Shown here: positions 35,992 through 52,390 of the stretch, one piece after another
Position numbering within the stretch: position 1 is the first letter of the stretch
Layout: each line of letters starts with the position of its first letter
Assembly (NCBI RefSeq): GCF_000813965.1
Contig: NZ_JWLI01000006.1
Location: 124,001 to 188,000, forward strand
Source: Leisingera sp. ANG-M7
GTDB taxonomy: Bacteria; Pseudomonadota; Alphaproteobacteria; Rhodobacterales; Rhodobacteraceae
Direction: 5' to 3'
DNA: 64,000 bases
Program-made: the position numbers and the translations under genes
The notes under the pieces: generated by a model
The model's input: the letters and a program-made list of their open reading frames with translations, nothing else
What the model was told of the DNA's origin: nothing
The model's database searches: none

Positions 35992-38093
35992 TGGAAATTC
36001 CTTACTGTGCCGCGTTTTGAGGAGGTGTTTGTGGTCTTCCCGTTCAGTTTCTGCTGCCACTCGTCGAGCACCAGCGCCTCGTCGAGCTCGGCGTAGTAGT
36101 CGAGCGTCGTCTGCAGGCTCACGTGGCCGAGCAGGCGCTGGACCTTGGGCAGGTTGTCCGGGCTGTCCTTGAGCCAGATCCAGCCAATCAGGTGCCTGTA
36201 GAGGTGCGGGTGGATGTTGACGCCGACGTGCCGCGCCAGCAGACTGGTTACACGCTTGAGCAGCGTGCCGTAGTGGGTGCCCGGCACGCCCTTGCCTTGG
36301 GTCGGGAACAGGTACGGGTTCTGTTTGTCATCGGGCTTCAGTATTCGAGGCCGAAGCACCTCGAGATAGTTTCTGAGCAGACGGCTGGTGCGTTCGCTGA
36401 GCGGGATCGGCAGGTCGGCATCGCTTTGGCAACGCATCTTGACCTCGACGGCGGGGACGGTGAGGCGCGCCAGTTTGCCTTGCCAGGAAATCCAGTCCAG
36501 CCGCGCGCGTAAAACGTTGTCGCTGCGCGGCGCCCGGCTCATCAGGATGTCGTGAGCCAATGCCGCCATCACGTCGCGGATAAGTTCGTCATCCATGACA
36601 TCAGCCTTGGCCGGAAGCGAACCAGTCTTCCTTCCTTGTTGACACCGGCGCCTGTCAATCTCAGCGTTCACGTTCATGATCGCGGCACCCGTCAGGTTGA
36701 TGGTCTGGAAAATCCTTTCTTGGGTAAACTGGTGAAGTTTTGCCCGATTTCTCGGGGAAATCCCTTTGAAACCCGGGTTGTGAAGCCTAATGAGTTCTGA
36801 AATTTCTTCCAGATCTTCAGCCGAACGCCCTACGAAGCCGGATGCGATCTTGCGCATTGCTTTCAAGACACTTGTGACATAGCCACTGGGGTAGTCGCTT
36901 TTGTTTCCATCAGAGAGTGCTTCAGCACCAACTTCCAGATACTCTGGATCTGTCAGTTCCTCGATCGTTTCCGGGACAACGTCGGTCGTGGCGATAATGG
37001 CCTTTGCCATGGAGATGACATAGCCCCGACGGCAGGCAAGTGTCGTGTCGGCCCACCGGTCCCTACCGGTAAGAAAACCCTTCTCTGCCATGAGTTTGGG
37101 CGATCCCTTTCTACCCGGCTTTCCCGATAGACGGCGCCGTTCCTTTTTAGCATTCCGGAGGCGTGCCTTCTTGTCCGAAACCGGATTTTCTGCCGCGTCG
37201 AGCGCGGCGATGAATTCAGCCCGGGATCGCCCGTCCTGCGACATTTGACCCGTAGCCCAAGGGGCCACCCGGTTATCAAATTCTGTGAGGAGAGGATTGA
37301 GTTGAGAGTTGCAGACACCGAACTTGTCGCGCCCGTCCTCGAACGGGTGCGGGGCGGCGGCAAATTCGAACTCTGCAAAATCCGGGTGATCTGTCAAAGA
37401 TCGCAGCAGCGTTGCGATTTCGCGCACATGCTTTTCGCACTGAACTTCGCCCTTGGCGGAAACCTCGACCCGATGGCGATAGTAATCCGCCAATGTGGCT
37501 GTCGAAATCTCGGCGGGTTGAATGCCCTTGTCGTGCAGGAAGAGGAGAAACGAACCCGAAATCAGCCGAGCAGTGTCAGCCAGGTCGCTGTCCCGGATCG
37601 CTTCGTGGACCTTTTTGTAAACCCCGCCGATATCGTCGATCCGGCGCTTCCGTTGGCGCGACTGGCCGTTACCTGCGGCAGTCACCAATGTAGACCGGTA
37701 GGTCGACATGCTTCCCTTGGTCAGGTTGAAGCTTGCAGGGCTATGGCTGTCGAAAAAGTCAATCACGTCCTGCTTGCAGACAACCTTTAGTTCCGGCACC
37801 CAGCCGGCCTCGCGGCATAGCCATTTCAGGCGCGAGCACAGGGTTTTGTTCCCGGCAGATTGCGCCTCGGCGATGAGGTCCGCATAGGTCCGGGGGGCCT
37901 CGCCGCCCGTTTCCAGGAGGTCGCGGCCAGTCGCCTCTGATAGCGCCATGAGCGTGGAATGGCGGGGTTTGAGGCCGGGGATGTTGAGAATGTCGGCGAC
38001 GGCTTTCGGGTTCAGTCCCGCGCGCAGTGACAGCGCCCGTCGGGATTCGCCGCTGGTGTCGAGAAAATCCTTCAGTTCCTGTGCAAGGGTCAT
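35988..38093 (-). CDS. Large tyrosine recombinase with N-terminal helix-turn-helix
   Basis: This 701-residue protein has a Cro/C1-like helix-turn-helix at the N-terminus (RRALSLRAGLNPKAVADIL). It has a long central region and a C-terminal tyrosine recombinase domain with HLYRHLIGWIWLKD (HxxR-type) and RLLGHVSLQTTLDYYAE (LGH and Tyr). Most integrases are 350-450 residues, so the extra 250 residues are notable. A lysine- and arginine-rich patch (KKARLRNAKKERRRLSGKPG) lies in the middle. ATG 38093 is preceded by a GGAG/AGGA box. It is 30 bp downstream of the small helix-turn-helix gene and overlaps the next recombinase. Confidence 0.83.
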   Translation of the reverse strand: MTLAQELKDFLDTSGESRRALSLRAGLNPKAVADILNIPGLKPRHSTLMALSEATGRDLLETGGEAPRTYADLIAEAQSAGNKTLCSRLKWLCREAGWVPELKVVCKQDVIDFFDSHSPASFNLTKGSMSTYRSTLVTAAGNGQSRQRKRRIDDIGGVYKKVHEAIRDSDLADTARLISGSFLLFLHDKGIQPAEISTATLADYYRHRVEVSAKGEVQCEKHVREIATLLRSLTDHPDFAEFEFAAAPHPFEDGRDKFGVCNSQLNPLLTEFDNRVAPWATGQMSQDGRSRAEFIAALDAAENPVSDKKARLRNAKKERRRLSGKPGRKGSPKLMAEKGFLTGRDRWADTTLACRRGYVISMAKAIIATTDVVPETIEELTDPEYLEVGAEALSDGNKSDYPSGYVTSVLKAMRKIASGFVGRSAEDLEEISELIRLHNPGFKGISPRNRAKLHQFTQERIFQTINLTGAAIMNVNAEIDRRRCQQGRKTGSLPAKADVMDDELIRDVMAALAHDILMSRAPRSDNVLRARLDWISWQGKLARLTVPAVEVKMRCQSDADLPIPLSERTSRLLRNYLEVLRPRILKPDDKQNPYLFPTQGKGVPGTHYGTLLKRVTSLLARHVGVNIHPHLYRHLIGWIWLKDSPDNLPKVQRLLGHVSLQTTLDYYAELDEALVLDEWQQKLNGKTTNTSSKRGTVRNFQ

Positions 38094-38123
38094 GTTCCTG
38101 GCTCCGTTTCAGTGGGCGACCGG

Positions 38124-38351
38124 TCACTCGAGGTCGAGATCCGGCCTTCCAGCTTCAGGCCGGACACGAAGCTCGAAGACCGCGAGCCACTCGTCCTTGA
38201 CCGTCCAGGATTTCCCCAGTTTCGCCGCCTGCAGCTTGACCAGCCCGTGCGGCGTCGGGCAGCCGTAGTTGATCCAGTCCCGGATCGTGTGCGGATCGCG
38301 CTTGAAGATCTCGGCGATTTCGTTGGTTGAGTAATACTTGGGCGTTTTCAT
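38124..38351 (-). CDS. Small helix-turn-helix (excisionase/MerR-like) protein
   Basis: This 75-residue protein starts MKTPKYYSTNEIAEIFKRDP and continues with HTIRDWINYGCP, the winged helix-turn-helix pattern of excisionases and MerR-like factors. GGGAGGAAACC before ATG 38351 is a good ribosome binding site. It is first of a three-gene unit with the two recombinases, so a directionality factor or regulator for them is the likely role. The 270 bp upstream, shared with the divergent ATPase gene, should hold both promoters. Confidence 0.75.
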   Translation of the reverse strand: MKTPKYYSTNEIAEIFKRDPHTIRDWINYGCPTPHGLVKLQAAKLGKSWTVKDEWLAVFELRVRPEAGRPDLDLE

Positions 38352-38621
38352 TGGTTTCCTCCCTTTGTCTTCGGAGGAAATGGGCCCCGACGGCGTTGGG
38401 AGGAAATTTTTTAGGAAATATAGTCTGTTGCAGCTTTGAGCTGGCGATGTTGTTGATGAGACGTGTTTGTTTGAACTTTTTCCCCGTCGAAAAAAGGGTC
38501 ACGCCAGTAATAGAAGAACTATTTCCGGTCTGCCCCAAATTTTCCGGATCAAACCGCTGTTTCCGTGATTTCCACAACGGACCCACTTCCCCGTCAGTTG
38601 AGGTGAAACGGAAAGCTGACG

Positions 38622-40832
38622 ATGAGCTTAATTTGCAGCACGACCAGAGTGCCGCGGGACGGAACCGGGAGATTCACGGGGCAGGGAGCATTTGACAGCG
38701 AAGTCCTGGTTCCAAGCACGCGGTTCACGCCACTCGTGGATGCGGATATAGACCTGCGCGTGGCCTTGCAGGGGGCCGAAACCATACTTGCCCTGCCTGG
38801 AGAGGTTTGCCTCGGCGTTGCCACCGTCGCATGCCGGGCCAGTCCAGGCGCCGGCAAGAGTCGGCTGGCACGGTTGTTGCTGGCTGAGAAGGACAGACGC
38901 GGCGAGGAATGCCGGGTGTCCTTCCACCTTCCAACCCTCGCCCTTGCCGAGGAGGCGGCGGCCGAGGCTGTTGATCTCGGGTTAAGGGCGCAGGCGATCC
39001 GCGGCCGTTCGGCGCCGCGTCCGGATGGGGTCGGTTCGATGTGCGCCAAGAGCGATCTGGTCGAGCGGGCGAGTCGTTTGGGTGTAGCCGTGCGAAACAG
39101 CTTTTGCCGGCGGGTCGAGGAAGATGGTACGGAAAGGCGCTGCCCGCACTTCGACCAATGCGCTTACCTGACGCAGTTCCAAGCTGGAGCTACGCACAAC
39201 TTTCTCGCCACCAGCTATCTTTCGCTGCCAGACCCGGTGGAAGATTGCGACTTGCGGATTGTCGACGAGACGTTCTGGCAGCATTTTTTGTCGATTAGGG
39301 ATGTGTCCGCTGCGTCCTTTGCCGAGCCGCGCACATTCTTGCCAGCCTCGGCGGCAGGCGATCACGCCGATCTGCTCGATGCGGCTCGACAGGTCGTGGC
39401 AGCACTAATCGCGGGGACATCGCCGTTGTCCTTGCCGTTTTCTCCCGCGGATTATTTGGCTTTCGTCGACTTGGAATGGCGGGGAAAAGCCTCGGATCCC
39501 TGGTTTGCCCCGGACCAGAGCGGCGTGCTGCAGGAAAAGCTGCTGAAGCAGGCGGAAGTGAGCCACCGCCAAGTGTCGCGCTTTGCCGCTATCTGGCAGG
39601 TGCTGGCCGACGCGAAGGAGGCTGGTCTCGACGCGACCGAGAGACTCCGTTTGACTTCAAACGATGACAAGCATTTCATTCGGGTTCTGCGCCGGAAGCC
39701 GGTACGTCATCAACAGCCGATGCTTGTACTTGATGCAGACGCAGATGAGGAAATCTTGTCGGCGCTCGATTGCGATATTCGTGGCATCCATGATGTCACG
39801 CTGCGACCGAACGCGGTTGTGGCGCAGCTTCACGATCGCCGGATGACGAACGGCAGCTTGCTGAGAAAGCCGGGGCTGCGCGAGACGTGGCGGCAGATAA
39901 TCACACGCGAAGTACTGACTGACCAACTCGGGCGGAATGGCGGCGTGTTGGTCGGTGCCACCCGCAAGGTCGTACGTGCGTTCTTCGAAGATGCCGGCTA
40001 TTGCTTTGATGGCATGTCGGAGAACGCGGTTTCGGACTACATGCTGGATACAAAGCTTTATGGTGCGCATTGGCTCTGGTTTGGTGGTCGCGCGCTTGGC
40101 TCAAACCGTTACAGAGATTGTTCAAGCGTCATTGTGATCGGGCGGGAGGAACTACCCGCTGCGGCACTGGAAGACCAGGCGCGGGCGCTCTGGGGGGATA
40201 CGCCTGGCGAACCGCTCAACCTGCTTGCTTCGGATGTTCTGGGAAACACCAAGATGCCCGAGTTGGCTATCCCTTACGAAATGACTGACGGTTCGGCAAA
40301 GGCAGTATTTGTGCCCTGCCACCCTGATCGCCGTGTCCGCCGCCTGCAGTTGCAAAGCCGCGAGCTTGCAACGAGGCAGTTGATCGAACGGTTGCGCCTG
40401 GCTCGGGCGCAATATCCGAAACGGGTTCTCATCGGCTGCAACATTCCCATTCCCGGCATCCCTGTGGATGAGCTGGTTTCGTGGCAGGAGATTTCGCCGA
40501 CCAGGCTCGAAGCGGCAATGAACGACGGTCTTTTGTCGAAAGGTGGCATAAGGTTGTCGGCTAACGGGCTCGCCGAGGGTGCGCCGAAAATATTTCCAAG
40601 CATTGAGGCCGCGCGAACTTACCTGAAGCGCAACATGTCCTTGGGCTTCAAGTCGTGGGCGATGAATCATCCATTGTACTGCGGGCAGGTCCGTTTCGCA
40701 GATATTCGGCGTTCTGCCCCACACGCCCGGAAGGAGATCGTAGCGTTGCTTGCTTCTGGCGGTGACGAGGTAAAAGCAGCCACAAGACTCTGGGGGGCGC
40801 TTAAGTCCTTCGCGCCACTTGAACAGCAGTAG
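38622..40832 (+). CDS. P-loop ATPase/helicase-like protein with a cysteine cluster
   Basis: This 736-residue protein has Walker A SPGAGKSRLA near residues 74-83, a Cys cluster near 162-179 (FCRRV, RRCPHFDQC), Walker B LRIVDETFW near 213-221, and a later segment, VLDADADEEI and GGRALGSNRYRDCSSVIVIGREE, seen in replication-helicase-like proteins of integrated elements. Three or four Cys between motifs I and II recall iron-sulfur helicases of the XPD type, but the fit is loose. The first 60 residues are unusual and the ribosome binding site is weak, so an N-terminal truncation (loss of a primase domain) is possible. It is divergent from the recombinase module and probably belongs to the same element. 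Confidence 0.6.
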   Translation: MSLICSTTRVPRDGTGRFTGQGAFDSEVLVPSTRFTPLVDADIDLRVALQGAETILALPGEVCLGVATVACRASPGAGKSRLARLLLAEKDRRGEECRVSFHLPTLALAEEAAAEAVDLGLRAQAIRGRSAPRPDGVGSMCAKSDLVERASRLGVAVRNSFCRRVEEDGTERRCPHFDQCAYLTQFQAGATHNFLATSYLSLPDPVEDCDLRIVDETFWQHFLSIRDVSAASFAEPRTFLPASAAGDHADLLDAARQVVAALIAGTSPLSLPFSPADYLAFVDLEWRGKASDPWFAPDQSGVLQEKLLKQAEVSHRQVSRFAAIWQVLADAKEAGLDATERLRLTSNDDKHFIRVLRRKPVRHQQPMLVLDADADEEILSALDCDIRGIHDVTLRPNAVVAQLHDRRMTNGSLLRKPGLRETWRQIITREVLTDQLGRNGGVLVGATRKVVRAFFEDAGYCFDGMSENAVSDYMLDTKLYGAHWLWFGGRALGSNRYRDCSSVIVIGREELPAAALEDQARALWGDTPGEPLNLLASDVLGNTKMPELAIPYEMTDGSAKAVFVPCHPDRRVRRLQLQSRELATRQLIERLRLARAQYPKRVLIGCNIPIPGIPVDELVSWQEISPTRLEAAMNDGLLSKGGIRLSANGLAEGAPKIFPSIEAARTYLKRNMSLGFKSWAMNHPLYCGQVRFADIRRSAPHARKEIVALLASGGDEVKAATRLWGALKSFAPLEQQ

Positions 40833-41018
40833 CGTTTCGATGAAAACAGCCTGAGGGTCGGCTGCCGGCAGGGTCAGTTTCATATTGGTCCGGATTTCGA
40901 AAACAAACTGGGGTCTCAGGCAAATTCCATTGAACCCAGGTTGTCGATCGGCCAATCTTCGCGGCGGGGTTGTGGCGCAGTCCGGAACTTAAAAGAAAAA
41001 CACTTACAGGAATTCGAA

Positions 41019-42539
41019 ATGAGCATCGAAAAGACGCTGTTTGCCGCCGCCGACAAGATGCGCGGCTCCATGGATGCCGGGGAATACAAGCATATCGCCT
41101 TGGGCCTGCTGTTTCTGCGCCATGTCTCGATGTCCTTTGAGCGCCTGCACGATCAGCTCTCCAAGGAAGAATACTCCGACCCGGAGGATCCGGATGAATA
41201 CCTGGCCGAGAGCATCTTCTGGGTGCCTGAAAAGGCGCGATGGTCGACGCTGGCCAAGCAATCCAAGGATCCCAAGATCGGGATCATGATCGACGATGCA
41301 ATGCGGGCGATTGAAGCGGACAATGAAAGCCTCAAGGGCGCGCTGCCCAAGGTCTTCGGCAAAGAGAGCATCGACCGCACTATGCTCACCGGCCTGATCG
41401 ACCTGTTCACAAACCTCAAGCTGGATGGCAGCAAGGCTGATTTCGACCTCATTGGCCGCATCTACGAATACTGCATTGGCGAGTTTGCCAGTTCAGAAGG
41501 CAAGCGCGGCGGTGAGTTCTACACACCCAAGTCCGTCGTAGACACGCTGATTGAGATGATCGAGCCCACCAAGGGCCGTGTCTATGACCCATGCTGTGGC
41601 ACCGGGGGCTTCTTCGTTCAGTCCGAAAAATTCATCGATGCCCACTCCGGCCAGCGCAATGACATCGCCATCTACGGACAGGAGCGCAACCACACCACCT
41701 TTGGCCTCGCGCGCATGAACCTTGCCATCCGGGGTATCTTTGGCGACATCCGCTGGAATTCCGAAGGCACCCTGGTCAAGGACGCTTTTGCCGACGAACG
41801 GTTCGACTATGTCCTGGCAAATCCGCCCTTCAACATTTCAGACTGGTCTGGCGAGCTGCTGCGCGAAGATGCGCGCTGGAAATATGGTGCGCCGCCAGTA
41901 GGCAACGCCAACTTTGCCTGGATCCAACATATCCATCACCATCTTTCTGCATCCGGCATTGGCGGGGTGGTTATGGCCAATGGCTCCATGTCTTCAATGT
42001 CGAGCGGGGAAGGCGACATCCGCCGGGCGCTGGTCGAGGGCGACGCGGTTGATGCCATGGTGGCGCTGCCGGGGCAGCTGTTCTACGGCACCCAGATCCC
42101 GGCCTGCCTGTGGATCCTGGCGCGGGACAAGTCCAACGGCATCGCCAAGGACGCCAAGCTGCGCGATCGGCGGGGTGAGGTGCTGTTTATCGACGCCCGC
42201 AATATGGGCGCGCTGGTGCCGGGCAGCCGCAAGCAGAAGGAATTGTCCGAGGAAGAGATCATCCGCATCGCCACCGCCTATCACGCCTGGCGCGGGGAGC
42301 CGGATGCTGGCGAATACGAAGACGTGCCGGGTTTCTGCAAATCGGCGGGCAAGGAAGAGATCGCCAAACACAACTATGTTCTGACCCCGGGTCGGTATGT
42401 CGGGGCAGGGGCCTCCGAGGAAGATGGTGAACCCTTTGAGGAGAAGTTTTCACGCCTCATGGGAGAGCTGCGTAGCCAGTTCGCCGAGGGACGGCGGTTG
42501 GAGAAGCAGATTGAAGATGGTTTGGAGCGTCTGGTATGA
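41019..42539 (+). CDS. hsdM: Type I restriction-modification DNA methyltransferase subunit
   Basis: This 506-residue N6-adenine methyltransferase has [11 protein letters not shown] (AdoMet-binding motif I) near residue 189 and NPPFNISDW (catalytic NPPF) near 268. The N-terminal helical domain begins [19 protein letters not shown], as in HsdM. ATG 41019 is chosen over the upstream in-frame start at 40941 because the HsdM family starts here and AGGA lies before it. It overlaps hsdS by ATGA. With HsdS it methylates the target sequence; with HsdR it forms the restriction complex. Confidence 0.96.
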
Positions 42540-43756
42540 GCCGAATGGTCCATCTCGAAGATGTTGCAACAGAAATAACCGTTGGCCATGTCGGATCAAT
42601 GGCGAACGAATACATTGAAGATGGCGTTCCCTTCCTGCGTTCATTGAACGTGCTGCCGCATCGTATAGAGACATCGGAAATCAAGTACATTTCTCCCGGC
42701 TTTCATGGGAAACTCAAGAAGTCAGCCTTGAAACCTGGCGATGTTGTTATCGTTCGGACAGGGAAACCTGGGACCTGTGCAGTAATTCCTGGAGACCTGC
42801 CCGTTTCCAATTGCTCCGATCTGGTGATTGTTCGCTGTGGCCCGGAGTTGCGTCCAAGGTTTCTTGCATACTGGGTGAATACGATTGCGCGGGATCATGT
42901 CGCCTCTCATGTGGTCGGCGCTGTGCAGCAGCATTTTAATGTCGGCTCGGCCAAAAAAATGCCCATTCGATTGCCGGATCTTAGGGTGCAGGATGACATC
43001 CTTTCAATACTCGGGGCGCTGGATGACAAGATCGAGCTGAACCGCAAGACGGCGGCAACCTTGGAGGAGATGGCGCGAGCGCTGTACCGGTCGTGGTTCG
43101 TCGATTTCGACCCCGTCCACGCCAAAGCCGCAGGCCGCGCCCCAGCCCATATGGATGCCCAAACCGCGGCTCTCTTCCCTGACAACTTCGGCGAGGATGG
43201 CCTGCCGGAGGGGTGGGTGTCAGAAACAGTTGGGGACCTGTTCACCCTTCAAAGGGGCTTTGATCTGCCAAAGAAGAACCGTGAGGACGGGCCTTACCCG
43301 GTGCTCGCGGCCGGAGGTCACCATGGGACACACAAAGATTTCAAGGTGAAGGGGCCAGGGGTCACCACCGGCCGAAGCGGCGTGATCGGGGAAGTGTTCC
43401 TGGTTCTGGAAGATTTCTGGCCGCTGAACACATCTCTTTGGGTAAAAGAATTCAAGAAATGCTCGCCATTCTTTGCATACTTCTTCCTGCAAACTCTGGA
43501 TTTGAAGGCTTTGAATTCAGGCTCGGCAGTGCCTTCCTTGAACCGAAACAACGTCCACAATCTGGCTGTAGGCACACCACCTTCCGACGTCATTTCATCT
43601 TTCGACAACTTGGTCTCCCCTATGTTTAATCGCATACAGGCGGCAACCAACGAAAGCCAAACCCTCGCTACCCTCCGAGACACGCTCCTGCCGCGTCTGA
43701 TGTCAGGAGAATTGCGTGTTGGAGAGGCGAAAGAGCAGGTGGGGGAGTTTGTATGA
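42536..43756 (+). CDS. hsdS: Type I restriction-modification specificity subunit
   Basis: This 406-residue protein has two target-recognition domains separated by helical spacers: [21 protein letters not shown] with [20 protein letters not shown] in the centre, and [20 protein letters not shown] at the C-terminus. The spacer sequences are strongly conserved in HsdS, while both recognition domains would set the target sequence, which cannot be read out here. Start and stop overlap hsdM and the HEPN-like gene (both ATGA). Confidence 0.95.
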
Positions 43757-44322
43757 TGGATAATCTGCCGTTCGACAAAGTCTTTGCCAAACAAGATGGG
43801 CAAGCCGAGCGCTTTCCGGGTTTCCTATTGGAAGATCACGGAAAGCACACCCGTGCTGAGCCCAAAGTACTTGCTTGGGTCTATGCAGAAGCAACGCTTC
43901 GCACCATCGATTTCGGATTGGAAAATCTGGACACGCCAGAAGCCGGATATCCCGCATTGTTCATGGCACGGCATACGGTGGAGCTATACCTCAAAGGGCT
44001 GGTTCCAGATTGGGAAACCCAAAAGCCCAAAGGCAAGAACCGGCACGCGATTGATTACTTGAAAGAAATCCTGTCGGAACAGTTGAAGCGAGACTACGAT
44101 GAACAGGAGGTTCAAGCCCTGTCAAAGTTCTTGACGCAGTTTTCGAAGCTCGATCCAAAGTCCATGGCTTTCAGGTATCAGGATGGTGCGGTTGTCAGCC
44201 TCAGGGATGATCCATTGTCGGATCCTGAAATCTGGATTGATTTCCAAGCGCTAAAGCAATCACTCTCAATGATATTTGAAGCCCTTGATAAAATTTGGGG
44301 CAAGCAAAATTCCAAGGCTTAA
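43753..44322 (+). CDS. HEPN-like protein inside the type I RM operon
   Basis: This 189-residue helical protein has ARHTVELYLKGL near residues 72-83 and KNRHAIDYL near 95-103. These recall the HEPN four-helix fold, in which an R-x4-6-H motif can be an RNase site; the precise motif is not clear here, so an inactive HEPN or antitoxin-like role is also possible. It overlaps the hsdS stop (ATGA) and precedes the DUF4268 gene by 9 bp. HEPN genes embedded between hsdS and hsdR are seen in other type I loci and may add an abortive layer if restriction fails; that is inference. Confidence 0.65.
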   Translation: MMDNLPFDKVFAKQDGQAERFPGFLLEDHGKHTRAEPKVLAWVYAEATLRTIDFGLENLDTPEAGYPALFMARHTVELYLKGLVPDWETQKPKGKNRHAIDYLKEILSEQLKRDYDEQEVQALSKFLTQFSKLDPKSMAFRYQDGAVVSLRDDPLSDPEIWIDFQALKQSLSMIFEALDKIWGKQNSKA

Positions 44323-44331
44323 GTCAAACAT

Positions 44332-45468
44332 ATGTTCCAGGTAGACCTTTCCAAGAACCGTATTCAAAAGCTTGAAGAAAGAAGATTTTCCGACCTCAAT
44401 CTGCGAGAGCGCGAACACCTCCAGGAATGGCTGGCCGGGCAGCCGGATGCGCTTGGAGAGGAGCTCCTGATCATCCAAAAGGAGTTCGACGGTTTCGCCG
44501 ACACGCGCGAACGGTTGGACCTGCTGGCGCTCGACAAGGATGGGCAGTTGGTGGTGATTGAAAACAAGCTGGACGACTCCGGCCGCGACGTGACCTGGCA
44601 GGCGCTGAAATACACCGCCTATGTCTCAGGGCTAACCAAAACGCAGATCATCGACATCTACCAGCAGTACCTGGACCGGTATTGCGGGGGCGGAAATGCT
44701 GCGGCGCAGATCTGCGATTTCCTTGACGTTGAAGAGCTTGGAGAGGTCATCCTGAACCCGGGTAATGACCAGCGGCTGATCTTCATTGCTGCCAACTTCA
44801 GGAAGGAAGTCACCTCGACCGTGCTCTGGCTACGCGAGCATCGTATCGACGCACGATGCTTTAAGGTCGTGCCGTATGTCTTTGGAGAAGAACTCTTTGT
44901 TGATATCCAGCCGGTGATCCCGACGCCTGAGGCCGCGGATTTCATGATTGGAATGGCAGAGAAAGAAACCGAGGCGCGGGGCGCGCACGGCGAGCAGAAG
45001 ACCCGCCACAAATTGCGTCGCGAGTACTGGGAAATGACCTTGGAGGCTTTGAAAGAAGCAGGGGACACGCTGTATCAGAACATCAGTCCCGGCAAGGATC
45101 ACTGGTTGAGCGCTGGGTCCGGTGTAAGATCCTGTCACTATGCGATGATCTTTGGAAAATCGGTGCTTCGGGTGGAGTTTTCCTTTGCTCGCGCCGTTGC
45201 CGAGGAGAACAAATGGCTGTTCGACCGCCTGATCCAGAAAAGGGATCAGATCGAAGCGGATTTCGGGCACAAGATCGAGTGGCTGAGGTTGGACGACAAG
45301 AAGGCTTGCCGGCTTCAGTATGAAGTCCCTTGTGACGGGTTCAATCGAGAGGAATGGCCCAATCACATCGCCTGGCATGTTGATCACATCCAAAAATGGG
45401 AGAGGGCGTTGAGAGGTCCTCTGGCTGAGGTTAATCAGGCCCTGAAAGCAAACGGTGGTGTTTCCTGA
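44332..45468 (+). CDS. DUF4268 protein with PD-(D/E)XK nuclease-like N-terminus
   Basis: This 378-residue protein has [19 protein letters not shown] at residues 61-79, which gives the D...ExK core (Asp63, Glu77, Lys79) of a PD-(D/E)XK fold. The C-terminal half (from about residue 235, [11 protein letters not shown] onward) matches DUF4268, with [19 protein letters not shown] and [16 protein letters not shown]. It lies between the HEPN-like gene and hsdR, and its stop shares one base with the hsdR start (TGATG). Likely a DNA-acting accessory of the RM operon; the substrate is unknown. Confidence 0.82.
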
Positions 45469-48400
45469 TGGCCTGGGCGACCGAAGCGGACCTTGAAGCG
45501 GTCTTCATGGAGGACCTTGGGGCGCTGGGGTATTCCTTGCATCATGGCTCCGAAATTTCGCCAGAAATGCGAAACCCAATGCGGACGAGCTTTCGGGAAA
45601 CGTTTCTTTTGCCGGTTTTTTTCGATGCCCTGAAACGTCTAAACCCGGAATTGCCCGATGCCGCGGTGCAAGAGGCTGCAACACGAGTTCACGACGTGGT
45701 CTTTGCCACCGATGTTGTGCAGGAGAACCGGCGTCTGCATGACCTTCTCGTCAACGGTGTGGCTCTGACGTATTTCGCGGATGGTGAAGAACGCAATACA
45801 CGCGTTCAGGTCGTCGATTGGGAAAACCAGAAGAACGATTGGCGCGCCGTCAATCAGGTGGACGTGGTTGGGAAGAACCCTCGGATCCCGGACGTGGTCC
45901 TGTTCCTGAATGGCTTGCCGTTGGTCGTTGTCGAACTTAAGGGGACGGAAGGGGCGGAGATTGATGCTGCCTATCGCCAGATCGACACCTACAAAGAAGA
46001 TATCCCCGATCTCTTTCGCACAACTCTTTTGACGGTCATTTCGGATGGGCTGAGTGCCCGCTATGGCTCGCTGTCGGCTGGGCTTGATCGGTTCATGCGA
46101 TGGCGTACCATCGACGGCGAGACTATCGTCGAAGAGAATACGGCGCTTGCCCTCCAAACTCTGACACAAGGGCTTCTGAACCCGCAAACGCTTCTGGATC
46201 TGCTGCGCTGGTTTGTAGTGTTCGAAGATGACGGTAAAGGACCGATCAAGAAGATCGCCGGCTATCATCAATTCCATGCTGTACGGAAGGCCATCCATAC
46301 GATTTTGACCGCTCAGGGAGGAGATGGCAAAGGCGGTGTCATCTGGCACACCCAAGGGTCCGGTAAATCCCTTCTGATGACTTTCCTCGCGGGGCGCGTG
46401 ATGCGGCATCCTGGTCTTGAAAACCCGACCCTCGTCGTTCTAACTGACCGTAATGACCTGGATAATCAGCTCTTTGCAACCTTCGGTCGATGTAAGGATC
46501 TGTTTGGCGAAGACCCGGTCCAGGCTGACAGTGTCAGTGATCTGAAAAACCTGCTGAACCGTGAAGTAGGTGGCGTTGTTTTTTCCACGATACAGAAATT
46601 CCGGCCGGAAAAGGGTGAGGTCTTTCCAGAGCTGACGAACCGTTCCAACGTCATCGTCATGGTCGATGAAGCGCACCGAACACAATACGGGTTCGAGGCG
46701 AAGATGAAGAAGGAGACAGGGGAAGTCCGTCATGGCCTCGCTTACCAACTTCGCCAGGCGCTACCCAATGCCGTTTACATTGCCTTCACAGGAACACCTG
46801 TCGAGTTGGTGGGAGCTAACACAAGGGGTGTTTTTGGCGATTACATTGACGTTTATGACATCGCCCAAGCTGTCGAGGATGGGGCGACGGTTCCAATCTA
46901 TTATGAAGCACGCGTTGCCAAGGTAGAGTTGGACGAGGAACTTTCCGGGGAACTCGACGAGGAATTCGACGAAGCCACCGAAGCAATGGAAGAAAGTGAG
47001 GCGGCGGCGATCGCTCGAAAATGGTCGCGTGTCGAAGCACTTGTAGGGGCTGACAAACGCCTGGATACGGTGGTCGAGGATGTACTGGAGCATTTCGACG
47101 CGCGGCTTGCGGCAATGGACGGCAAGGCAATGATTGTCTGCATGAGCCGACGCATCTGCGTTGAAGTGTATAATAGGATCGTGGAACTAAGACCTGATTG
47201 GCATGGAGACACTGACGAAACTGGTCAGGTCAAAGTCATCATGACTGGGAACGCAACTGATCCTGCGGAATTCCGGCCCCATATTCGCTCGAAGTCCCGC
47301 CAGGAAGCGATCAGGAACCGCACAAAGGATCCGGCTGATCCGCTGAAACTCGTCATCGTCCGTGACATGTGGTTGACCGGATTTGATGCGCCCTGCATGC
47401 ATACCCTTTATGTCGACAAGCCCATGCGTGGGCATGGCCTCATGCAGGCTATCGCCCGGGTGAATCGGGTATTTCAGGACAAACCCGCCGGGCTGGTCGT
47501 TGACTATATTGGTATCGCTGCGGAATTGAAGTCCGCGCTCGCCCACTACAGTCAGTCTGATCAGCAACAGACAGGGATCAGTGAAACCGAAGCCGTCGCC
47601 GCTTTTCTGGATGCGCTCGACGTGGCGCGTACCCAGTTCCATGGCTTTGACTATTCTCAGGCCCTGGGGGGGACACCTGCTGAGCGGCTTCGCGTACTAC
47701 CGGGCGCTCTCGATCACATTTTGCAAAAGGACAGACTGGGCGAAGGCGGTGTTGTAAAGCGTTTCAACGATACCACTGCGGCCCTGGTAAAGGCCTTCAA
47801 ACTCGCTTCAGGCAGTCCTCAGGCTACCGAACACACGGAAGAAGTAGCCTTCTTCTCTGCAGTCAGGTCAGGTCTCGAGAAGGTTGGAGCCGGGCCGGTA
47901 GCGCGGTCTTCCAGGAATCCGGATTTTGCAATTCAGCAGCTTGTGAATCGGGCGATTGCGTCAACGGAAGTCGTGGATGTCCTGGAAGCCTGCGGCTTCG
48001 ATCGCCCTGACATCAGCGTTCTGTCTGATGCCTTCATGATCGAAATCCAAAACATGAAGCATAAGAACCTGGCGGTGGAAGCGCTCAAGAAGCTCTTGAA
48101 TGGTGAAATCACGGCGAAGACAAGAACGAATATCGTTCAAAGAGAGGAGTTTTCTTCACGCTTGGAGCAGGCGATTGCCAAATACCACAATAGAAGTGTT
48201 GACGCCCTTCAGATCCTTCAGGAACTAATTGAAATTGCTAAGGACTTGCGTGATGAGCCCGATGACGGGCTGACCGCTGAAGAAAGGGCATTTTATGATG
48301 CGCTGGCGCAGAACAACAGCGCGGTTGAAGTCATGAGCAACGATGAATTGCGGGTCATCGCATCAGAGCTGGTCAAGACTGTGCGGAAGAATTCGGGTAC

Positions 48401-48551
48401 GGATTGGTGGCGCCGGGACAATGTACGGGCCAAGATGCGCATTGCCGTAAAAAAAATCCTACAAAGGCATGGATACCCGCCTGATCTTGCATCTGAAGCT
48501 GTGAAGACTGTTCTTCGCCAGGCCGAGGCCTTGGCAACCGAGATAAATTGA
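45468..48551 (+). CDS. hsdR: Type I restriction endonuclease motor subunit
   Basis: This 1027-residue protein has the PD-(D/E)XK site near residues 140-158 ([10 protein letters not shown] then VVVELKG), Walker [12 protein letters not shown] near 296, DEAH box [12 protein letters not shown] near 398, IAFTGTPVE as motif III, and motif VI region [14 protein letters not shown]. It translocates DNA and cleaves unmodified sites with HsdMS. TGATG coupling to the upstream gene makes the start at 45468 secure. A hairpin follows 24 bp after the stop. Confidence 0.96.
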
Positions 48552-48574
48552 TCGGCAGAGGAGGCTAAGCAAAA

Positions 48575-48596
48575 GGCCCCGCAAATGTGTGGGGCC
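48575..48596 (+). terminator. Hairpin terminator after hsdR
   Basis: GGCCCCGC (48575-48582) and GTGGGGCC (48589-48596) form an 8-bp stem with one G-T pair around a 6-base loop, 24 bp after the hsdR stop. There is no T run after it, so termination may be partial or factor-assisted. Confidence 0.5.
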
Positions 48597-48800
48597 ATCT
48601 GTGTGTGCGAAGCGTCATTTCATTTGAGCAAAGCCTCCTCCTCGGCCGAGTAAAACGTCTCCTGCGCGGCGGGAACTGGAGATCGATCAGTTGCGCCAAA
48701 TCGGGGAGAATGTCATCGTCTATCAATGTCCTCAGTTGTAGAACACAAGACTTGATCTGACATTTCTGCTCTTTTGACGGCTCGTAGAGGAATTGACAGA

Positions 48801-49073
48801 TCACATTTGATCCATCTCTGCCCACTGGTCCTGAAAACGGGTAGTCTCGGTGGCATGCCTTTCGTCAATAAAGTTGGCGAAATCCGTCAGATGGATGAAT
48901 CTCTGCGCCTTCTGGCTGTTCTCATCGAGGCTGAAATAGGGAATCCGGATCTCGCCGCCGTCGATTTTCTGTTTCAGCGTGTCGGGCTTGTATCTCCAGT
49001 AACCGGCCGCAGCTTCGAGCGGGATGACCGGATCAGCGCCAAAGCGGGCCAGCAGCATGTCGATTGTCTTCAT
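48801..49073 (-). CDS. PrtN-like (pyocin activator family) small DNA-binding protein
   Basis: This 90-residue protein resembles pyocin activator PrtN: short N-terminal MKTIDMLLARF, PVIPLE, a helix-turn-helix-like TLKQKIDGGEIRIPYFSL and a C-terminal HLTDFANFIDERHA. ATG 49073 fits the family length and has GGAG seven bases upstream; the longer upstream frame is ignored. In Pseudomonas, PrtN activates prophage-like genes. Here the gene sits at the integrase end of the island and shares an upstream 15-bp element, at the same distance, with the integrase gene, which points to control of integration or excision. Confidence 0.78.
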   Translation of the reverse strand: MKTIDMLLARFGADPVIPLEAAAGYWRYKPDTLKQKIDGGEIRIPYFSLDENSQKAQRFIHLTDFANFIDERHATETTRFQDQWAEMDQM

Positions 49074-49100
49074 TGGGTTCTCCGTCTTCTCTTCAGATGT

Positions 49101-49115
49101 GAAGAGGAATTCGGT
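49101..49115 (-). promoter_or_regulatory. Leader element shared with the integrase gene, copy at the PrtN-like gene
   Basis: GAAGAGGAATTCGGT (plus strand) begins 28 nt upstream of ATG 49073 and matches 51147-51161 at 14 of 15 positions. Both copies sit in minus-strand leaders at exactly the same distance from the start. Each is followed toward the gene by a CTTC-type inverted partner (CTTC...GAAG). It may be an operator or promoter element; the function is inferred. Confidence 0.55.
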
Positions 49116-49227
49116 CCGCGGCCGGAAATTAAAAATGCGGTTTGTTTGGTACCGGGTAAGGGGGCTTCGGCAGACTCTACGAACCGAGCGCGGACGGCAG
49201 CAGCCAGTGTTCCGGGAGGCGGCGTGA

Positions 49228-49764
49228 TGGGCGCATCTGAGGCGTGACTTCCATGATGTCTGGGAGGCGAGCAGGTCGGAGATCGTAGGGGAGGCCCCCG
49301 ACCGGAACGGCAAACTCTGCGACGCTGAACAGGAGATCTCCGGTCAGCCCGCCGAGCTGCGCAAGCCTGCGCGTCAACAGAACTCCGGACTCCTGATCGG
49401 GGCCTTCAAGGCGTGGGTTGAGCCCCAGCTTGCGCGCATTCCGGGAAAGGGCGATCTGGCCAAGGCCTTCCGGTATGGGGTGTCCCGCTGGCCCTCCTTT
49501 GCACTCTTCCTGTAGGACGGGTGCATCGGCATCGACAAAAATCCGGCCGAGCGGTCCATACGCCCGATCGGGATCGGTAGGAAAAACTGGCTCTTCGCAG
49601 GATCCGACAGCGGCGGGGAAACTCTGGCCCGCGCCATAACGCTCGTCGAGACCGCGAAGATGATTGGTGCCGATCCGCAAGCCTGGTTGGCCGACGTGCT
49701 CGACAGCATCCACGATCACAAGATCAATCGGATCGACGAGCTTCTTCCATAGAATTGGACGCCA
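49228..49764 (+). pseudogene. IS66-family transposase (TnpC) C-terminal remnant
   Basis: One plus-strand frame carries WAHLRRDFHDVWEA, ARIPGKGDLAKAFRYGVSRW, DKNPAERSIRPIGIGRKNW, LFAGSDSGGETLARAITLVE, DPQAWLADVL and HDHKINRIDELLP, all characteristic of the IS66 transposase C-terminus. The frame is broken by TAG at 49513-49515 (in place of the Glu of LFLEDG) and TAG at 49750-49752 (in place of the Trp of LLPWNW), with another stop just upstream of 49228. The N-terminal two thirds and the other IS66 genes are missing. It is inactive and lies between the PrtN-like gene and the integrase. Confidence 0.88.
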
Positions 49765-49817
49765 CTGGTGTAATCCGTGGTATCAACCGGTCGGTTACGG
49801 TACCGGTCGCCCGGGGA

Positions 49818-51119
49818 TTACTTCTCGGACGCATTGTCCTCAGGCAGGCATTCGCACATTTCGAGGACACGTTCAAACCAAGGCCAGTCGGCAAATTTGT
49901 CACCTGACTCTTCGACGTGCTCGTAGCGATACAAACATCCGCCGTTCTTGTGGCCAGAGATTTTTGAGACAAACGCTGCTGGCATACCCATTTCAAAAAG
50001 CCGACTGATGGCCTCGTGCCTCAAGTCGTGGAAGCGCAGGCCTTCGACGCCAACCTTGTCTCTGTGACGGCGATATGCGGTGCCGACCGATTTTGCATTG
50101 AAAGGAAAGATGTACTCCGAGGTTCTGGGCATAGCAAGAATGATCGCCAGCGCTTCTTTGGACAGTGCGCACCATACGTCATTCCCCTTTTTCCTCCGCG
50201 GGTGTTTCATATCGCGGACCAGAATTTTGCAACTCGCTTCGCGCAGGTCGTCCCAGCGCAAGCGGCAAATTTCACTCAATCTTCGAGCGGAAAAAATTGC
50301 GAACACTAAAAGGACCGCAACAGGAAGTTTTTGGCGACGGTTGCTGGCAAGCGAGCTGAGAATCTTGTCAAGCTCACCCAGTTCTGGGCGCCTTTCCCTT
50401 TCTTCCGAACGTGCAAGGATCTCATCCTCCCAGAGAGTTTCCATTGCCAGTGTAACGACCTCGATCGGGATGAGAGTCCCGCGGCGTTGAGCCCATTTCA
50501 GGGCGGAAGCCAAATGCGTCATATAGCCGGCGACTGTTTGCGAAGTTCGTTCCTCGTTTAGAAGTTCCTCCGCGAATTCATAAAGCTGTTGCTGGGTCAG
50601 CGTAGAAACCCTTGTCTTGCCAAATTCGTGCTTTTTTATGAACTCGAGGTTTTGTTTGGCAGAGCGCCCGAGCTCCCTTCCGCGTTTGAGCCGATCGGCA
50701 ATCACGTCTGCGATCGTTTTCTCCGTGAGGACTTTGATTGGAAACCCATGCAATTCGATCACCGCCAGCTTTTTGTCCCGCCACTCTTTAGCGTTCTTCA
50801 GATGGCGGAAGGTCTTGCACAGGCTGTGCTGCTTCCCATCTACCCGGCGGCGGATCTGAACGCGATAGGTTTTGCGGCCTCCGGATGTGACCCGTTCGGC
50901 GATGTAAGGTTCCACTTTTGGCTCTTTCGTGCCTTTTTTCTTTGAGGCTTTTGCTGGGCTTGGCTCAGCCTTTTTCTGTGTTGCTGTCGGTGTACGGTCT
51001 TGCACGGGTGTAGCCGCAAAGGAAAACGGCTGCGCGGCATGTTGCGCGCCTTGGTTGGCGCCACGCTGTGCAGCGATTGTGGCAAGCATGTTGTTTGTGC
51101 TGTCGTCGATACTGGTCAT
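49818..51119 (-). CDS. dusA-associated tyrosine integrase
   Basis: This 433-residue integrase has an Ala/Lys-rich linker (residues 1-70), an arm-binding segment (YRVQIRRRVDGKQHSLCKTF), a core-binding domain, and a catalytic domain with ARRLSEICRLRWDD (Arg), FHDLRHEAISRL (HxxR) and SGHKNGGCLYRYEH (His and Tyr). It starts at ATG 51119 and points away from dusA, whose start is 276 bp to the right. This is the layout of elements that insert at the 5' end of dusA. The 15-bp element at 51147-51161 in its leader also precedes the PrtN-like gene. Confidence 0.92.
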   Translation of the reverse strand: MTSIDDSTNNMLATIAAQRGANQGAQHAAQPFSFAATPVQDRTPTATQKKAEPSPAKASKKKGTKEPKVEPYIAERVTSGGRKTYRVQIRRRVDGKQHSLCKTFRHLKNAKEWRDKKLAVIELHGFPIKVLTEKTIADVIADRLKRGRELGRSAKQNLEFIKKHEFGKTRVSTLTQQQLYEFAEELLNEERTSQTVAGYMTHLASALKWAQRRGTLIPIEVVTLAMETLWEDEILARSEERERRPELGELDKILSSLASNRRQKLPVAVLLVFAIFSARRLSEICRLRWDDLREASCKILVRDMKHPRRKKGNDVWCALSKEALAIILAMPRTSEYIFPFNAKSVGTAYRRHRDKVGVEGLRFHDLRHEAISRLFEMGMPAAFVSKISGHKNGGCLYRYEHVEESGDKFADWPWFERVLEMCECLPEDNASEK

Positions 51120-51146
51120 CTTAAAAGGTTCCTTCTTCGGTGGTGC

Positions 51147-51161
51147 GAAGAGGAAGTCGGT
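51147..51161 (-). promoter_or_regulatory. Leader element shared with the PrtN-like gene, copy at the integrase
   Basis: GAAGAGGAAGTCGGT (plus strand) begins 28 nt upstream of ATG 51119 and matches 49101-49115 at 14 of 15 positions at the same distance. CTTC about 9 bases toward the gene forms an inverted partner with GAAG. It could be the target of the PrtN-like activator; the function is inferred. Confidence 0.55.
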
Positions 51162-51323
51162 TCATCCCAGAAAAGTTTGCTGGGGTTTGATTGCCGATTC
51201 CATCGGTGCAGTCGGAGACCAGGGGGGGCGGTTCCCGGGGGTGGCGGAATGCCCGGAAGGGGCGGTGTCCTGTCGGCTCGAGTGTGCTACACGGTAGCAA
51301 TCCAGAATCGAAAATCGCCAAAA

Positions 51324-51350
51324 ACCCGGAGAAATACCCGGAAATCCGGG
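51324..51350. repeat. Short repeats near the dusA attachment region
   Basis: ACCCGGA occurs at 51324-51330 and again at 51336-51342, twelve bases apart. The second copy is part of CCCGGAAATCCGGG (51337-51350), a near-palindrome with 6-bp arms. Between an integrase gene and its target, such repeats are candidates for arm-type or accessory-factor sites. It lies about 90 bp from the expected crossover. Confidence 0.4.
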
Positions 51351-51394
51351 GGAATTTTGCTACATGGCTGTCAGGGTGAAGTGAGGCTAACGCA

Positions 51395-52390
51395 TTGAAA
51401 AGTAACGCACAAAAAGCGGCGCGTTTGAGCGTGGCGCCCATGATGGACTGGACTGACCGGCACTGCCGCAATCTGCACCGGCTGCTGAGCCAGCAGGCGC
51501 TGCTGTATACCGAGATGGTCACCGCGCCGGCGCTGGTGCGGGGCGGTGCGCTGCATCTCTTGGACTTCAACGCCGAGGAGCATCCGGTGGCGTTGCAGCT
51601 GGGCGGCTCCGATCCTGCCGAGCTGGCAGAGGCCGCGCGGCTGGGGGCGCAGGCGGGCTATGATGAGATCAACCTCAACTGCGGTTGCCCCAGCGACCGG
51701 GTGCAATCCGGTGCCTTTGGCGCGGTGCTGATGCAGACGCCGGAACTGGTGGCGGATTGCGTGGCGGCCATGCGCGAGGCGGTTGAGGTCGAGGTCACCG
51801 TTAAGTGCCGCATTGGAGTGGACGAGCAGGAGCCGGAGCAAGTGCTTCCGGATTTCCTGGAGAAGATCCGTGAAGCAGGCTGCCGGCGCGTGACCATTCA
51901 TGCCCGCAAGGCCTGGCTGCAGGGGCTGTCGCCCAAGGAGAACCGGGACATCCCGCCGCTGGATTATAATCTGGTGCACCGGATGAAGGCGGCCTTTCCG
52001 GATCTGCATGTCTCGATCAATGGCGGCATAGCCACGCTGGCAGAGGCGAAGGCGCATCTGGACCAGGGCCTTGACGGGGTGATGGTGGGACGTGCGGCCT
52101 ATCACCAGCCTGCGGATGTTCTCTGCGCGGCAGACCCTGAGATTTACGGCATCGGTGCCGCCAGCAACCCGGCCGATGCTGTGCGGCAGATGCTGCCCTA
52201 TATCGAGGCCTGCCTTACCGGAGGCGCCAAGCTGAACCAGATCACCCGCCACATGCTGGGGCTGTTTGCGGGCAAGCCCGGCGCGCGCCAGTGGCGGCGG
52301 ATGCTGTCCGAGGGCGCCTGCCGGGCGGGTGCAGGTCCGGATCTGGTGCTGGAAGCCCTGGCGCAAGTGGAGAGCCGCGCGGCGGCGTGA
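51395..52390 (+). CDS. dusA: tRNA-dihydrouridine(20/20a) synthase DusA
   Basis: This 331-residue FMN enzyme reduces uridine 20/20a in the tRNA D-loop. It contains APMMDWTDRHCRNL, NLNCGCPSDRVQ (catalytic Cys) and ISINGGIATL/VMVGRAAYHQP-type phosphate-binding elements. The start is TTG 51395, with GTGAGG eight bases upstream; no ATG or GTG start upstream fits. The codons for MMDWTD coincide with the attachment core of dusA-integrating elements, so the sequence upstream of that point, including this start codon and its ribosome binding site, probably came with the island and replaced the native 5' end. Confidence 0.96.
   Translation: MKSNAQKAARLSVAPMMDWTDRHCRNLHRLLSQQALLYTEMVTAPALVRGGALHLLDFNAEEHPVALQLGGSDPAELAEAARLGAQAGYDEINLNCGCPSDRVQSGAFGAVLMQTPELVADCVAAMREAVEVEVTVKCRIGVDEQEPEQVLPDFLEKIREAGCRRVTIHARKAWLQGLSPKENRDIPPLDYNLVHRMKAAFPDLHVSINGGIATLAEAKAHLDQGLDGVMVGRAAYHQPADVLCAADPEIYGIGAASNPADAVRQMLPYIEACLTGGAKLNQITRHMLGLFAGKPGARQWRRMLSEGACRAGAGPDLVLEALAQVESRAAA
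51437..51456 (+). other. Candidate attachment core at the dusA 5' end
   Basis: CCCATGATGGACTGGACTGA encodes PMMDWTD of dusA, the conserved block used as integration target by dusA-associated elements. The integrase next door and the island gene content support it. The matching repeat should lie at the left end, outside the window; I found no second copy inside. The exact core cannot be fixed without that copy. Confidence 0.6.

Follow-up and report, generated by a model that had tools for sequence, protein, structure and literature searches.

Two sequence blocks shared by the leaders of int and rdfN in dusA-integrated islands, and a repeat array beside the attachment site as a candidate RdfN target

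In regard to the proteins that direct the excision of islands integrated at dusA, a Vibrio dusA element has been described in which the PF11112 protein RdfN is the recombination directionality factor (RDF) and excises the element (PMC8409611). A prtN homologue was present in 60 of 94 dusA islands, with its role given as unknown (PMC4482086), and the signals that drive rdfN in prophage-like dusA islands were raised as a question in the Vibrio study (PMC8409611). Regulatory activities have been described for RDFs elsewhere: RdfS, besides binding attP, activates intS and is a repressor at its own promoter (PMC11963761), the sites of RDFs are direct repeats spaced by one turn of the helix, with Apl a regulator of promoters too (PMC7498355), and TorI represses intS through sites near the intS -35 (PMC2951348). 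PrtN itself uses a P-box, usually four repeats of 10-11 nt located 60-100 bp before the Shine-Dalgarno (SD) sequence (PMC4905994). Our study concerns Leisingera sp. ANG-M7, in which a window of 64,000 nt (the whole stretch of DNA analysed; coordinates are window positions unless prefixed) carries a pair of similar 15-mers before an integrase gene (int) adjoining dusA and before a PrtN-like gene, named rdfN below.

At about even confidence, we read this element as the lower of two blocks that make up a control region common to int and rdfN, with RdfN predicted to bind both an array at the attachment site (att) and the two promoters. The shared blocks, the array, and the conservation and spacing of both are direct observations, and the features concerned are the following:

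51395..52390, + strand: dusA (PF01207, 4.6e-84).
51430..51445, - strand: attachment core (attL) within the dusA 5′ end, a conserved core with its partner at C55:115719-115750, beyond the window.
51307..51346, - strand: four 10-bp direct repeats (consensus GGTTTCCccg), the proposed RdfN array; the window score was not reached in 200 shuffles with the other-group matrix.
51284..51300, - strand: inverted repeat TTGCTACCGTGTAGCAC, the proposed Int arm-type sites; GCTACnnnGTAGCA is present in 23/23 dusA-linked loci, and GTAGCA occurs twice at the far island end.
51184..51195, - strand: GGCAATCAAACC, a third stretch common to near relatives, from a by-eye reading of their int and rdfN leaders.
51166..51175, - strand: upper block of int, CTTTTCTGGG; 49/488 controls score as high against the array unit, and many relatives match it better.
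51152..51163, - strand: lower block of int, GAACCGACTTCC, from matrix tests.
51129..51155, - strand: dyad or possible hairpin of the int leader, covering the ribosome-binding region (-38..-1 segment: z -4.47, 0/300 shuffles as stable).
49818..51119, - strand: int, tyrosine recombinase of 433 aa (PF00589, 2.9e-18; phrog_1 integrase).
49122..49131, - strand: upper block of rdfN, TAATTTCCGG, from matrix tests and the match to the array unit.
49106..49117, - strand: lower block of rdfN, GGACCGAATTCC, the core of the 15-mer (0/488 controls as high at that distance).
49089..49106, - strand: dyad CTCTTC-ACATCT-GAAGAG of the rdfN leader, a possible mRNA hairpin (-38..-1 segment: z -1.50, p 0.073).
48801..49073, - strand: rdfN-like gene, 90 aa, PF11112 (PyocinActivator/PrtN; Pfam 58.6 bits against a cut-off of 24.2; phrog_1300 excisionase, 1.1e-16).

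The two 15-mers, GAAGAGGAATTCGGT at 49101-49115 and GAAGAGGAAGTCGGT at 51147-51161, lie where the first-pass annotation had placed them, in identical orientation and 28 positions (27 bases between) from the start codons, whose first bases on the minus strand are 49073 and 51119. The inverted partner that it described exists as well, as CTCTTC-6 nt-GAAGAG before rdfN and as TTCCTCTTC...GAAG-A-AGGAA before int. The window holds 10 sites with at most 3 mismatches from GAAGAGGAANTCGGT, against 5.4 expected, a count that is unremarkable alone; the two 15-mers have 0 mismatches, while the other 8 sites have 3. Of the 59,685 pairs formed by 346 leaders of the same genome, 1 has a 15-nt stretch with 14 or more identical bases at equal distance from the start, when only stretches ending at or before -14 are counted. 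Because of these two results, the 15-mer match is, as an equal-distance pair, well beyond chance. The full 15-mer is unconserved past the nearest relatives, with similar sequences before int of L068 and before rdfN of L048 (L numbers denote the loci compared). Its conserved part is GAACCnAcTTCC, and the CTCTTC half varies, often being replaced by another self-complementary pair. Coincidence, or recent copying of one leader onto the other gene, would agree with the near-identity of the full 15-mer being confined to the window and its closest relatives; such an origin is hardly credible, since divergent islands again have the two blocks before int and rdfN alike, and the control pairs so rarely reach this similarity.

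In related dusA islands, the degenerate core GAACCnAcTTCC starts 35-45 nt before int and rdfN alike. The annotation had proposed a search of other dusA islands for the element, and this search found the core before both genes in many islands; conservation thus holds for the degenerate core, while the exact 15-mer is limited to the nearest relatives. The sets compared comprised initially 19 int and 16 rdfN leaders and later 23 and 19, near-duplicates being down-weighted or removed from the counts of representatives, and the 488 control leaders came from a simple open reading frame (ORF) caller with starts assigned by SD match. Start codons of int were set by hand or by homology in several loci (L049, L063, L067), and that of L123 was revised before the reciprocal test. 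L048 contributed no int leader, its int being truncated, and L053 and L067 stayed outside the training of the first matrix. Integrases at 32-37% identity with no dusA seen alongside (L054-L057 and others) were excluded from the motif tests. A 12-mer matrix built from 17 int leaders, the window included (consensus GAACCaAcTTCC), scored 11/16 rdfN leaders above all 488 controls at the same distance (p=1.2e-6 for 11 representatives). With the window excluded from training, the lower block learned from int placed 13/19 rdfN leaders (8/12 representatives) in the top 1% of the 488 controls (p=2.6e-7), and the one learned from rdfN placed 10/23 int leaders (5/13 representatives) there (p=4e-6). The upper block (TTTCCG; CGATTTCCG), located about 20 nt further upstream than the lower one, likewise passed both reciprocal tests with the window excluded (p=3.6e-8 with 8/19 in the top 1%, and p=6.8e-9 with 4/23). 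In these reciprocal tests the lower matrix trained on int was shifted by one base (consensus AAtCcAccTCCC) and the upper matrix trained on rdfN had the consensus cAAaTTTTC, and the same places were picked.

The distance between int and rdfN is 744 nt in the window, 72-191 nt in 12 of the 14 measured relatives with an open int frame, 444 nt in L061 and 3,358 nt in L050. Both blocks are retained before rdfN in the window and in L050 despite such separation, and the control region therefore belongs to each gene. Common control of int and the PrtN-like gene, which had been suggested from the 15-mers alone, is well supported by the presence of both blocks before both genes in related islands, with the reservation that some islands deviate.

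The stretch between the dusA core and int follows a plan common to the loci. The distance from GCTACnnnGTAGCA to the att core is 147 nt in 22/23 loci and 146 in one (18/19 plus that one in the first set; 147 in 4/4 added loci), and the direct repeats of the array, phased by one turn of the helix, sit just before the GCTACnnnGTAGCA inverted repeat, next to the att core. All three spacings are exactly 10 bp in 16/20 loci and one spacing is 9 in the other four, the twentieth locus being the Pseudomonas phage L116 with a shorter distance from core to repeat. When the array was scored by leaving the locus's own group out of the matrix, none of 200 shuffles reached the score in 18/20 loci, one did so in L095 and five in L050. 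Phased units were also found in PF11112-bearing phages outside training, in Yersinia YeP1 (0/100 shuffles) and, as recorded, in Elizabethkingia EKP1 (1/100), where they stand beside a dusA-like core identified by eye. The likely Int arm sites of these two phages differ, and these few cases therefore suggest that RdfN, and not one Int arm motif, is what the array accompanies. Klebsiella Kp4882 had a low array score of 5.7 (0/100 shuffles) and no core identified, and it was not counted; the E. coli PhiR40 record ends at the core, with nothing scored there (80/100). The far-end flank of the island, scored with the array matrix, contained no array (52/100 shuffles as high). The phased array at 51325-51350 (-) scores in addition as two overlapping terminator-like hairpins, three such sites being present in 51090-51450 against 0.4 expected.

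Alternatively, the shared element could itself be an Int arm-type site through which Int represses its own gene and rdfN. KplE1 IntS represses intS via sites overlapping or near the promoter (PMC2951348), and the int copy of the element is located between int and the attachment core. The rdfN copy, however, lies about 2.3 kb from the core, and GCTACnnnGTAGCA is a better candidate arm site, with its fixed place in all 23 dusA-linked loci read and GTAGCA also at the far island end, so that we regard this explanation as very unlikely.

The array and the promoters are linked in sequence by the upper block. A matrix of the array unit, learned outside the leaders, matched this block both before int (p=2.6e-10, 15 representatives) and before rdfN (p=8.9e-7, 12 representatives), and the unit is enriched at -66..-52 of both genes. 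The upper block is therefore likely the best candidate RdfN site in both promoters, since the array matrix matches it and not the int lower block; the lower block was also considered as a further array unit, which found no support for int. Control by the PrtN-like protein itself, as proposed by the annotation, is accordingly plausible through the upper block and less so through the 15-mer, which the array matrix leaves unmatched in int and matches weakly in rdfN.

The same annotation had called this protein an activator, which is probably wrong. The dusA-island homologue of PrtN is RdfN (PMC8409611), the window protein matches the phrog_1300 excisionase, and the PrtN-like gene is therefore best read as rdfN, encoding the RDF of dusA islands, rather than as a pyocin-type activator. 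It encodes a small PF11112 protein in a dusA island, 90 aa long against 76 residues of the Vibrio RdfN, and is the sole PF11112 match in the genome at E<=0.001. An AlphaFold2 model built from five sequences (pLDDT 86) was compared by Foldseek, with P2 4lhf, RdfS 8dgl and BldC among the best matches (E 0.01-0.1, none <=0.001); MarR-type proteins were listed too. We take P2 4lhf to be the Cox protein. A pyocin-type P-box regulon was rejected, as the unit ATTGnn(n)GT occurred in 0/42 int and rdfN leaders of 120 nt each; in the window it had 31 matches against 50 expected, none of them in the int or rdfN leader.

According to the reading with a two-block control region, RdfN would bind head to tail on the four 10-bp repeats beside the attachment site, and the array-bound protein would turn Int towards excision. 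The array repeat unit would stand alone about 60 nt before int and rdfN, where RdfN may tune both promoters by feedback, like RdfS and Apl. The lower block GAACCnAcTTCC would mark the promoter or leader start of the two genes and run into a small hairpin tending to cover the int ribosome-binding site. That RdfN is the protein bound there, the direction in which it regulates and whatever part the hairpin plays are our inferences.

The hairpin deserves separate consideration, as the 15-mer runs into its start. In the -38..-1 segment, the mean stability relative to shuffles was z -1.16 for 30 representatives and -0.03 for 244 controls (p=5.9e-7 overall, 0.0025 for int and 1.5e-5 for rdfN), with 7/30 representatives reaching p<0.05 singly. 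The stem sequences vary between loci with pairing kept (CTCTTC/GAAGAG, CCCATC/GATGGG, CGTCAG/CTGACG), and structure is therefore favoured. Pairing of the SD with the upstream part was raised overall (0.54 vs 0.35, p=0.0018) and for int (p=0.0014), and not for rdfN (p=0.198); its excess over a shuffled upstream part gave p=0.035 overall, 0.0082 for int and 0.61 for rdfN. An earlier version with 48 nt gave int stability p=0.215, rdfN p=0.008 and SD pairing p=0.09, and the 38-nt segment was picked after that test had given little, so that the evidence for the hairpin is post hoc and moderate. A leader of L149, 40 nt before the helix-turn-helix (HTH) homologue of a recombinase module, contains a hairpin of -16.0 kcal/mol enclosing the ribosome-binding region, and hairpin leaders may be common in HTH/recombinase modules.

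It is also conceivable that the 15-mer is mainly an RNA device, in which TTCC/CTTC forms the 5′ arm of a hairpin closing the ribosome-binding site and lowering int and rdfN translation, for instance that of read-through transcripts. The excess stability, the pairing-preserving stem changes and the raised overall SD pairing point in this direction, as do the strong hairpins (z -3.1 to -3.5) in plasmid homologues of a third gene described below. We nevertheless consider such a device unlikely, given the weak 48-nt test, the later choice of a shorter segment, the rdfN SD pairing, the small share of singly significant leaders and the weak folding of the group B int leaders. Moreover, a hairpin leaves the conserved GAACC and the upper block unexplained, and a scan of 38000-52000 with Rfam 15 returned 0 matches over the gathering score.

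A scan of the window with both matrices led to a third gene carrying the composite leader, with these features:

38622..40832, + strand: third gene with the composite leader, 736 aa, from the composite scan; P-loop by eye, primase/helicase-like distant relatives.
38579..38590, + strand: lower block before the third gene, GGACCCACTTCC, the top composite score in the window (0/488 controls as high).
38520..38575, + strand: TTTCC-type units and GATCAAACC before the third gene, from reading of the leader.

The best composite, at 38579, stands 43 nt before this gene, int ranking second and rdfN fourth; the third rank, at 43426 inside hsdS, looks like chance. The leader contains GATCAAACC, TTTCC units, GGACCCACTTCC and a CGTCAG/CTGACG pair. 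A stricter ribosome-site (SD) filter had dropped the 736-aa gene and a later, looser one admitted it. With both blocks held to their distances, 0/488 control leaders reached any of the three threshold pairs set; four composite hits scoring at least 18 occur in 400 kb of the same genome (best 22.8), and single composite hits are therefore not proof. The 736-aa protein had no Pfam match above cut-off, no PHROG family, no confirmed relatives on viral contigs and no match at E<=1 in a sequence search of solved structures. Its nearest homologues, on plasmids and at 48-51% identity, are hypothetical proteins, and more distant ones are annotated as toprim, primase/polymerase or helicase. A (A)TCAAACC-like stretch is found about 20 nt before the lower block of all three genes, at 51166-51195, 49139-49146 (-) and 38547-38555 (+), and in near relatives; its 5′ half presumably resembles an integration host factor site.

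Several points weigh against the proposal that RdfN acts through this control region. The Roseovarius and Sulfitobacter plasmid homologues of the third gene have CGACCGATTTCC at -38 (2/488 controls as high; three plasmid homologues were examined, two of them nearly identical), while the window RdfN matched six plasmid records with no Roseobacter plasmid among them, a search in which divergent homologues could be missed. The lower block may therefore answer to something other than RdfN, and for the same reason the part of the earlier proposal that tied the 15-mer to the PrtN-like protein is weakened, the core being found also before third-gene homologues on a kind of plasmid for which no PF11112 relative was matched with the window protein. 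The array matrix gave p=0.32 on the int lower block and a weak p=0.0094 on that of rdfN, and there is one clear unit per promoter, whereas RDFs usually need several. The rdfN leaders of L061, L062, L063, L066, L067 and L124 fell outside the top 1% with the int-trained matrix, and the int leaders of L049, L051, L052, L053, L061, L065, L066 and L067 were ordinary with the rdfN-trained one (84-292/488 controls as high); int of L067 is frameshifted. In the window the lower block also precedes the HTH gene at 38351, and it is absent from five homologues of that gene. A sigma-70-like promoter was looked for in both regions and none was found. In addition, these sequences had been viewed before the array seed and the block boundaries were picked, and four units at spacings of 9-11 bp are built into the array model. 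In the Vibrio element, AcaCD drives the rdfN promoter and int is active with or without AcaCD (PMC8409611).

Such observations could also be explained by another protein, island- or host-encoded, that reads the two blocks together and turns on a small regulon, namely int, rdfN and the 736-aa gene, with RdfN acting on the att array only. The third gene being the best composite match in the window, the retention of CGACCGATTTCC on plasmids for which no RdfN was matched, a lower block motif that differs from the array and the external activator of the Vibrio rdfN (PMC8409611) all fit this possibility. It is doubtful all the same, as no candidate regulator was identified and a separate regulator does not predict an upper block equal to the array unit. 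A genome-wide host regulon was rejected, GAACCGAMTTCC with at most 1 mismatch being no more frequent in the genome (34 occurrences, 2 of them exact) than its reversed pattern (39).

A broader version of the preferred reading, in which RdfN serves both att array and promoters, would make the composite leader (RDF repeat unit, GAACCnAcTTCC and ribosome-site hairpin) the mark of a regulon of integrase, excision factor and primase-like gene in the mobile elements of one family. The RDF would then govern recombination direction as well as expression, and lower block plus hairpin would form an undescribed leader type, spread also to primase-like plasmid genes. We regard this extension as rather improbable.

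As for the island itself, int (49818-51119) and dusA (51395-52390) are divergent and the tyrosine integrase directly adjoins the dusA 5′ end, as in the islands defined by Farrugia 2015. At the far end, beyond the window, a 32-nt copy of the dusA 5′ segment (90.6% identity, C55:115719-115750) stands in front of the two GTAGCA sites. The island thus has imperfect att repeats at both ends with the original dusA 5′ end at the far one, again in line with Farrugia 2015, and since this copy marks the other end, the dusA-integrated island is estimated at about 60 kb. Relatives of the integrase elsewhere in the class at E<=1e-80 were found in 1/385 genomes, which was the window's own. In several relatives (L047, L067, L095, L122, L048), int or rdfN is frameshifted, stop-containing or truncated, and some islands look stranded. 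One further feature lies between the two genes:

49228..49752 (limits approximate), + strand: transposase remnant, outside the control unit, from three-frame translation with internal stops; we take its family to be IS66-like.

This remnant begins some 100 bp further upstream than the rdfN control region. In one other island (L061:3445 (-), L130:18945 (-)), a composite is found before a 1,329-aa gene that lies about 0.7 kb downstream of rdfN and whose product has in its first 378 aa a TPR match above cut-off and a Mrr match just below. The third gene is followed, at 40941-48551 (+), by a type I restriction-modification set of HsdM, HsdS and HsdR with two ORFs between, one of them DUF4268. On its other side, an HTH_17-like gene of 75 aa (its match lying below the Pfam cut-off), a gene for a 701-aa tyrosine recombinase and an ORF of 465 aa follow one another at 34663-38351 (-), and a Sulfitobacter dubius plasmid has the same annotated order of HTH, site-specific integrase, site-specific integrase. 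The HTH leader at 38351 contains GGGCCCATTTCC and a TTTCCTCC/GGAGGAAA hairpin; the lower block was rejected as a general leader of HTH/recombinase modules, given its absence in the homologues of this gene.

To our knowledge, which in regard to literature is limited to open-access papers, neither the array nor the arm sites nor the shared leader has been reported. The main text of both dusA papers is without the terms "arm-type" and "arm site", and that of PMC8409611 also without RdfN binding, footprint and EMSA (electrophoretic mobility shift assay). For another group of dusA islands, our results predict where RdfN would bind, with a 40-bp array that keeps a constant position next to the core and a further site ahead of each of int and rdfN, and they propose Int arm sites. 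Should this be true, the attachment region of a widespread island class would be readable from sequence, and the pyocin activation and excision jobs of PF11112 proteins would be linked to one binding mode on 10-bp repeats.

Among known systems, KplE1 TorI/IntS, whose proteins we take to be of families different from those here, is similar in that RDF and integrase both regulate int from sites of the attachment region. Only intS is shown to be under such control there (PMC2951348). The PrtN/P-box system of Pseudomonas shares a PF11112 protein (by Pfam name) and tandem 10-11-nt units upstream of regulated genes, but its unit is ATTGnn(n)GTnn(n), usually in four copies, whereas here a GATTTCC-like unit forms an array at att and single copies at the promoters. 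RdfN of the Vibrio IMEVchUSA3 belongs to the same Pfam family and has the same target gene, with int beside dusA, while its AcaCD-driven rdfN and AcaCD-independent int differ from the feedback proposed here. Phage 186 Apl likewise combines phased direct repeats as RDF sites with an RDF doubling as a promoter regulator; however, it acts on the phage pR-pL promoters, while here the unit is a single clear copy before int and rdfN. Finally, RdfS/IntS of ICEMlSymR7A offers a winged-HTH RDF acting on attP, the int promoter and its own promoter, as predicted here for RdfN; our locus differs from it in having a PF11112 protein as RDF, a second block and a leader hairpin common to int and rdfN, and dusA as the target.

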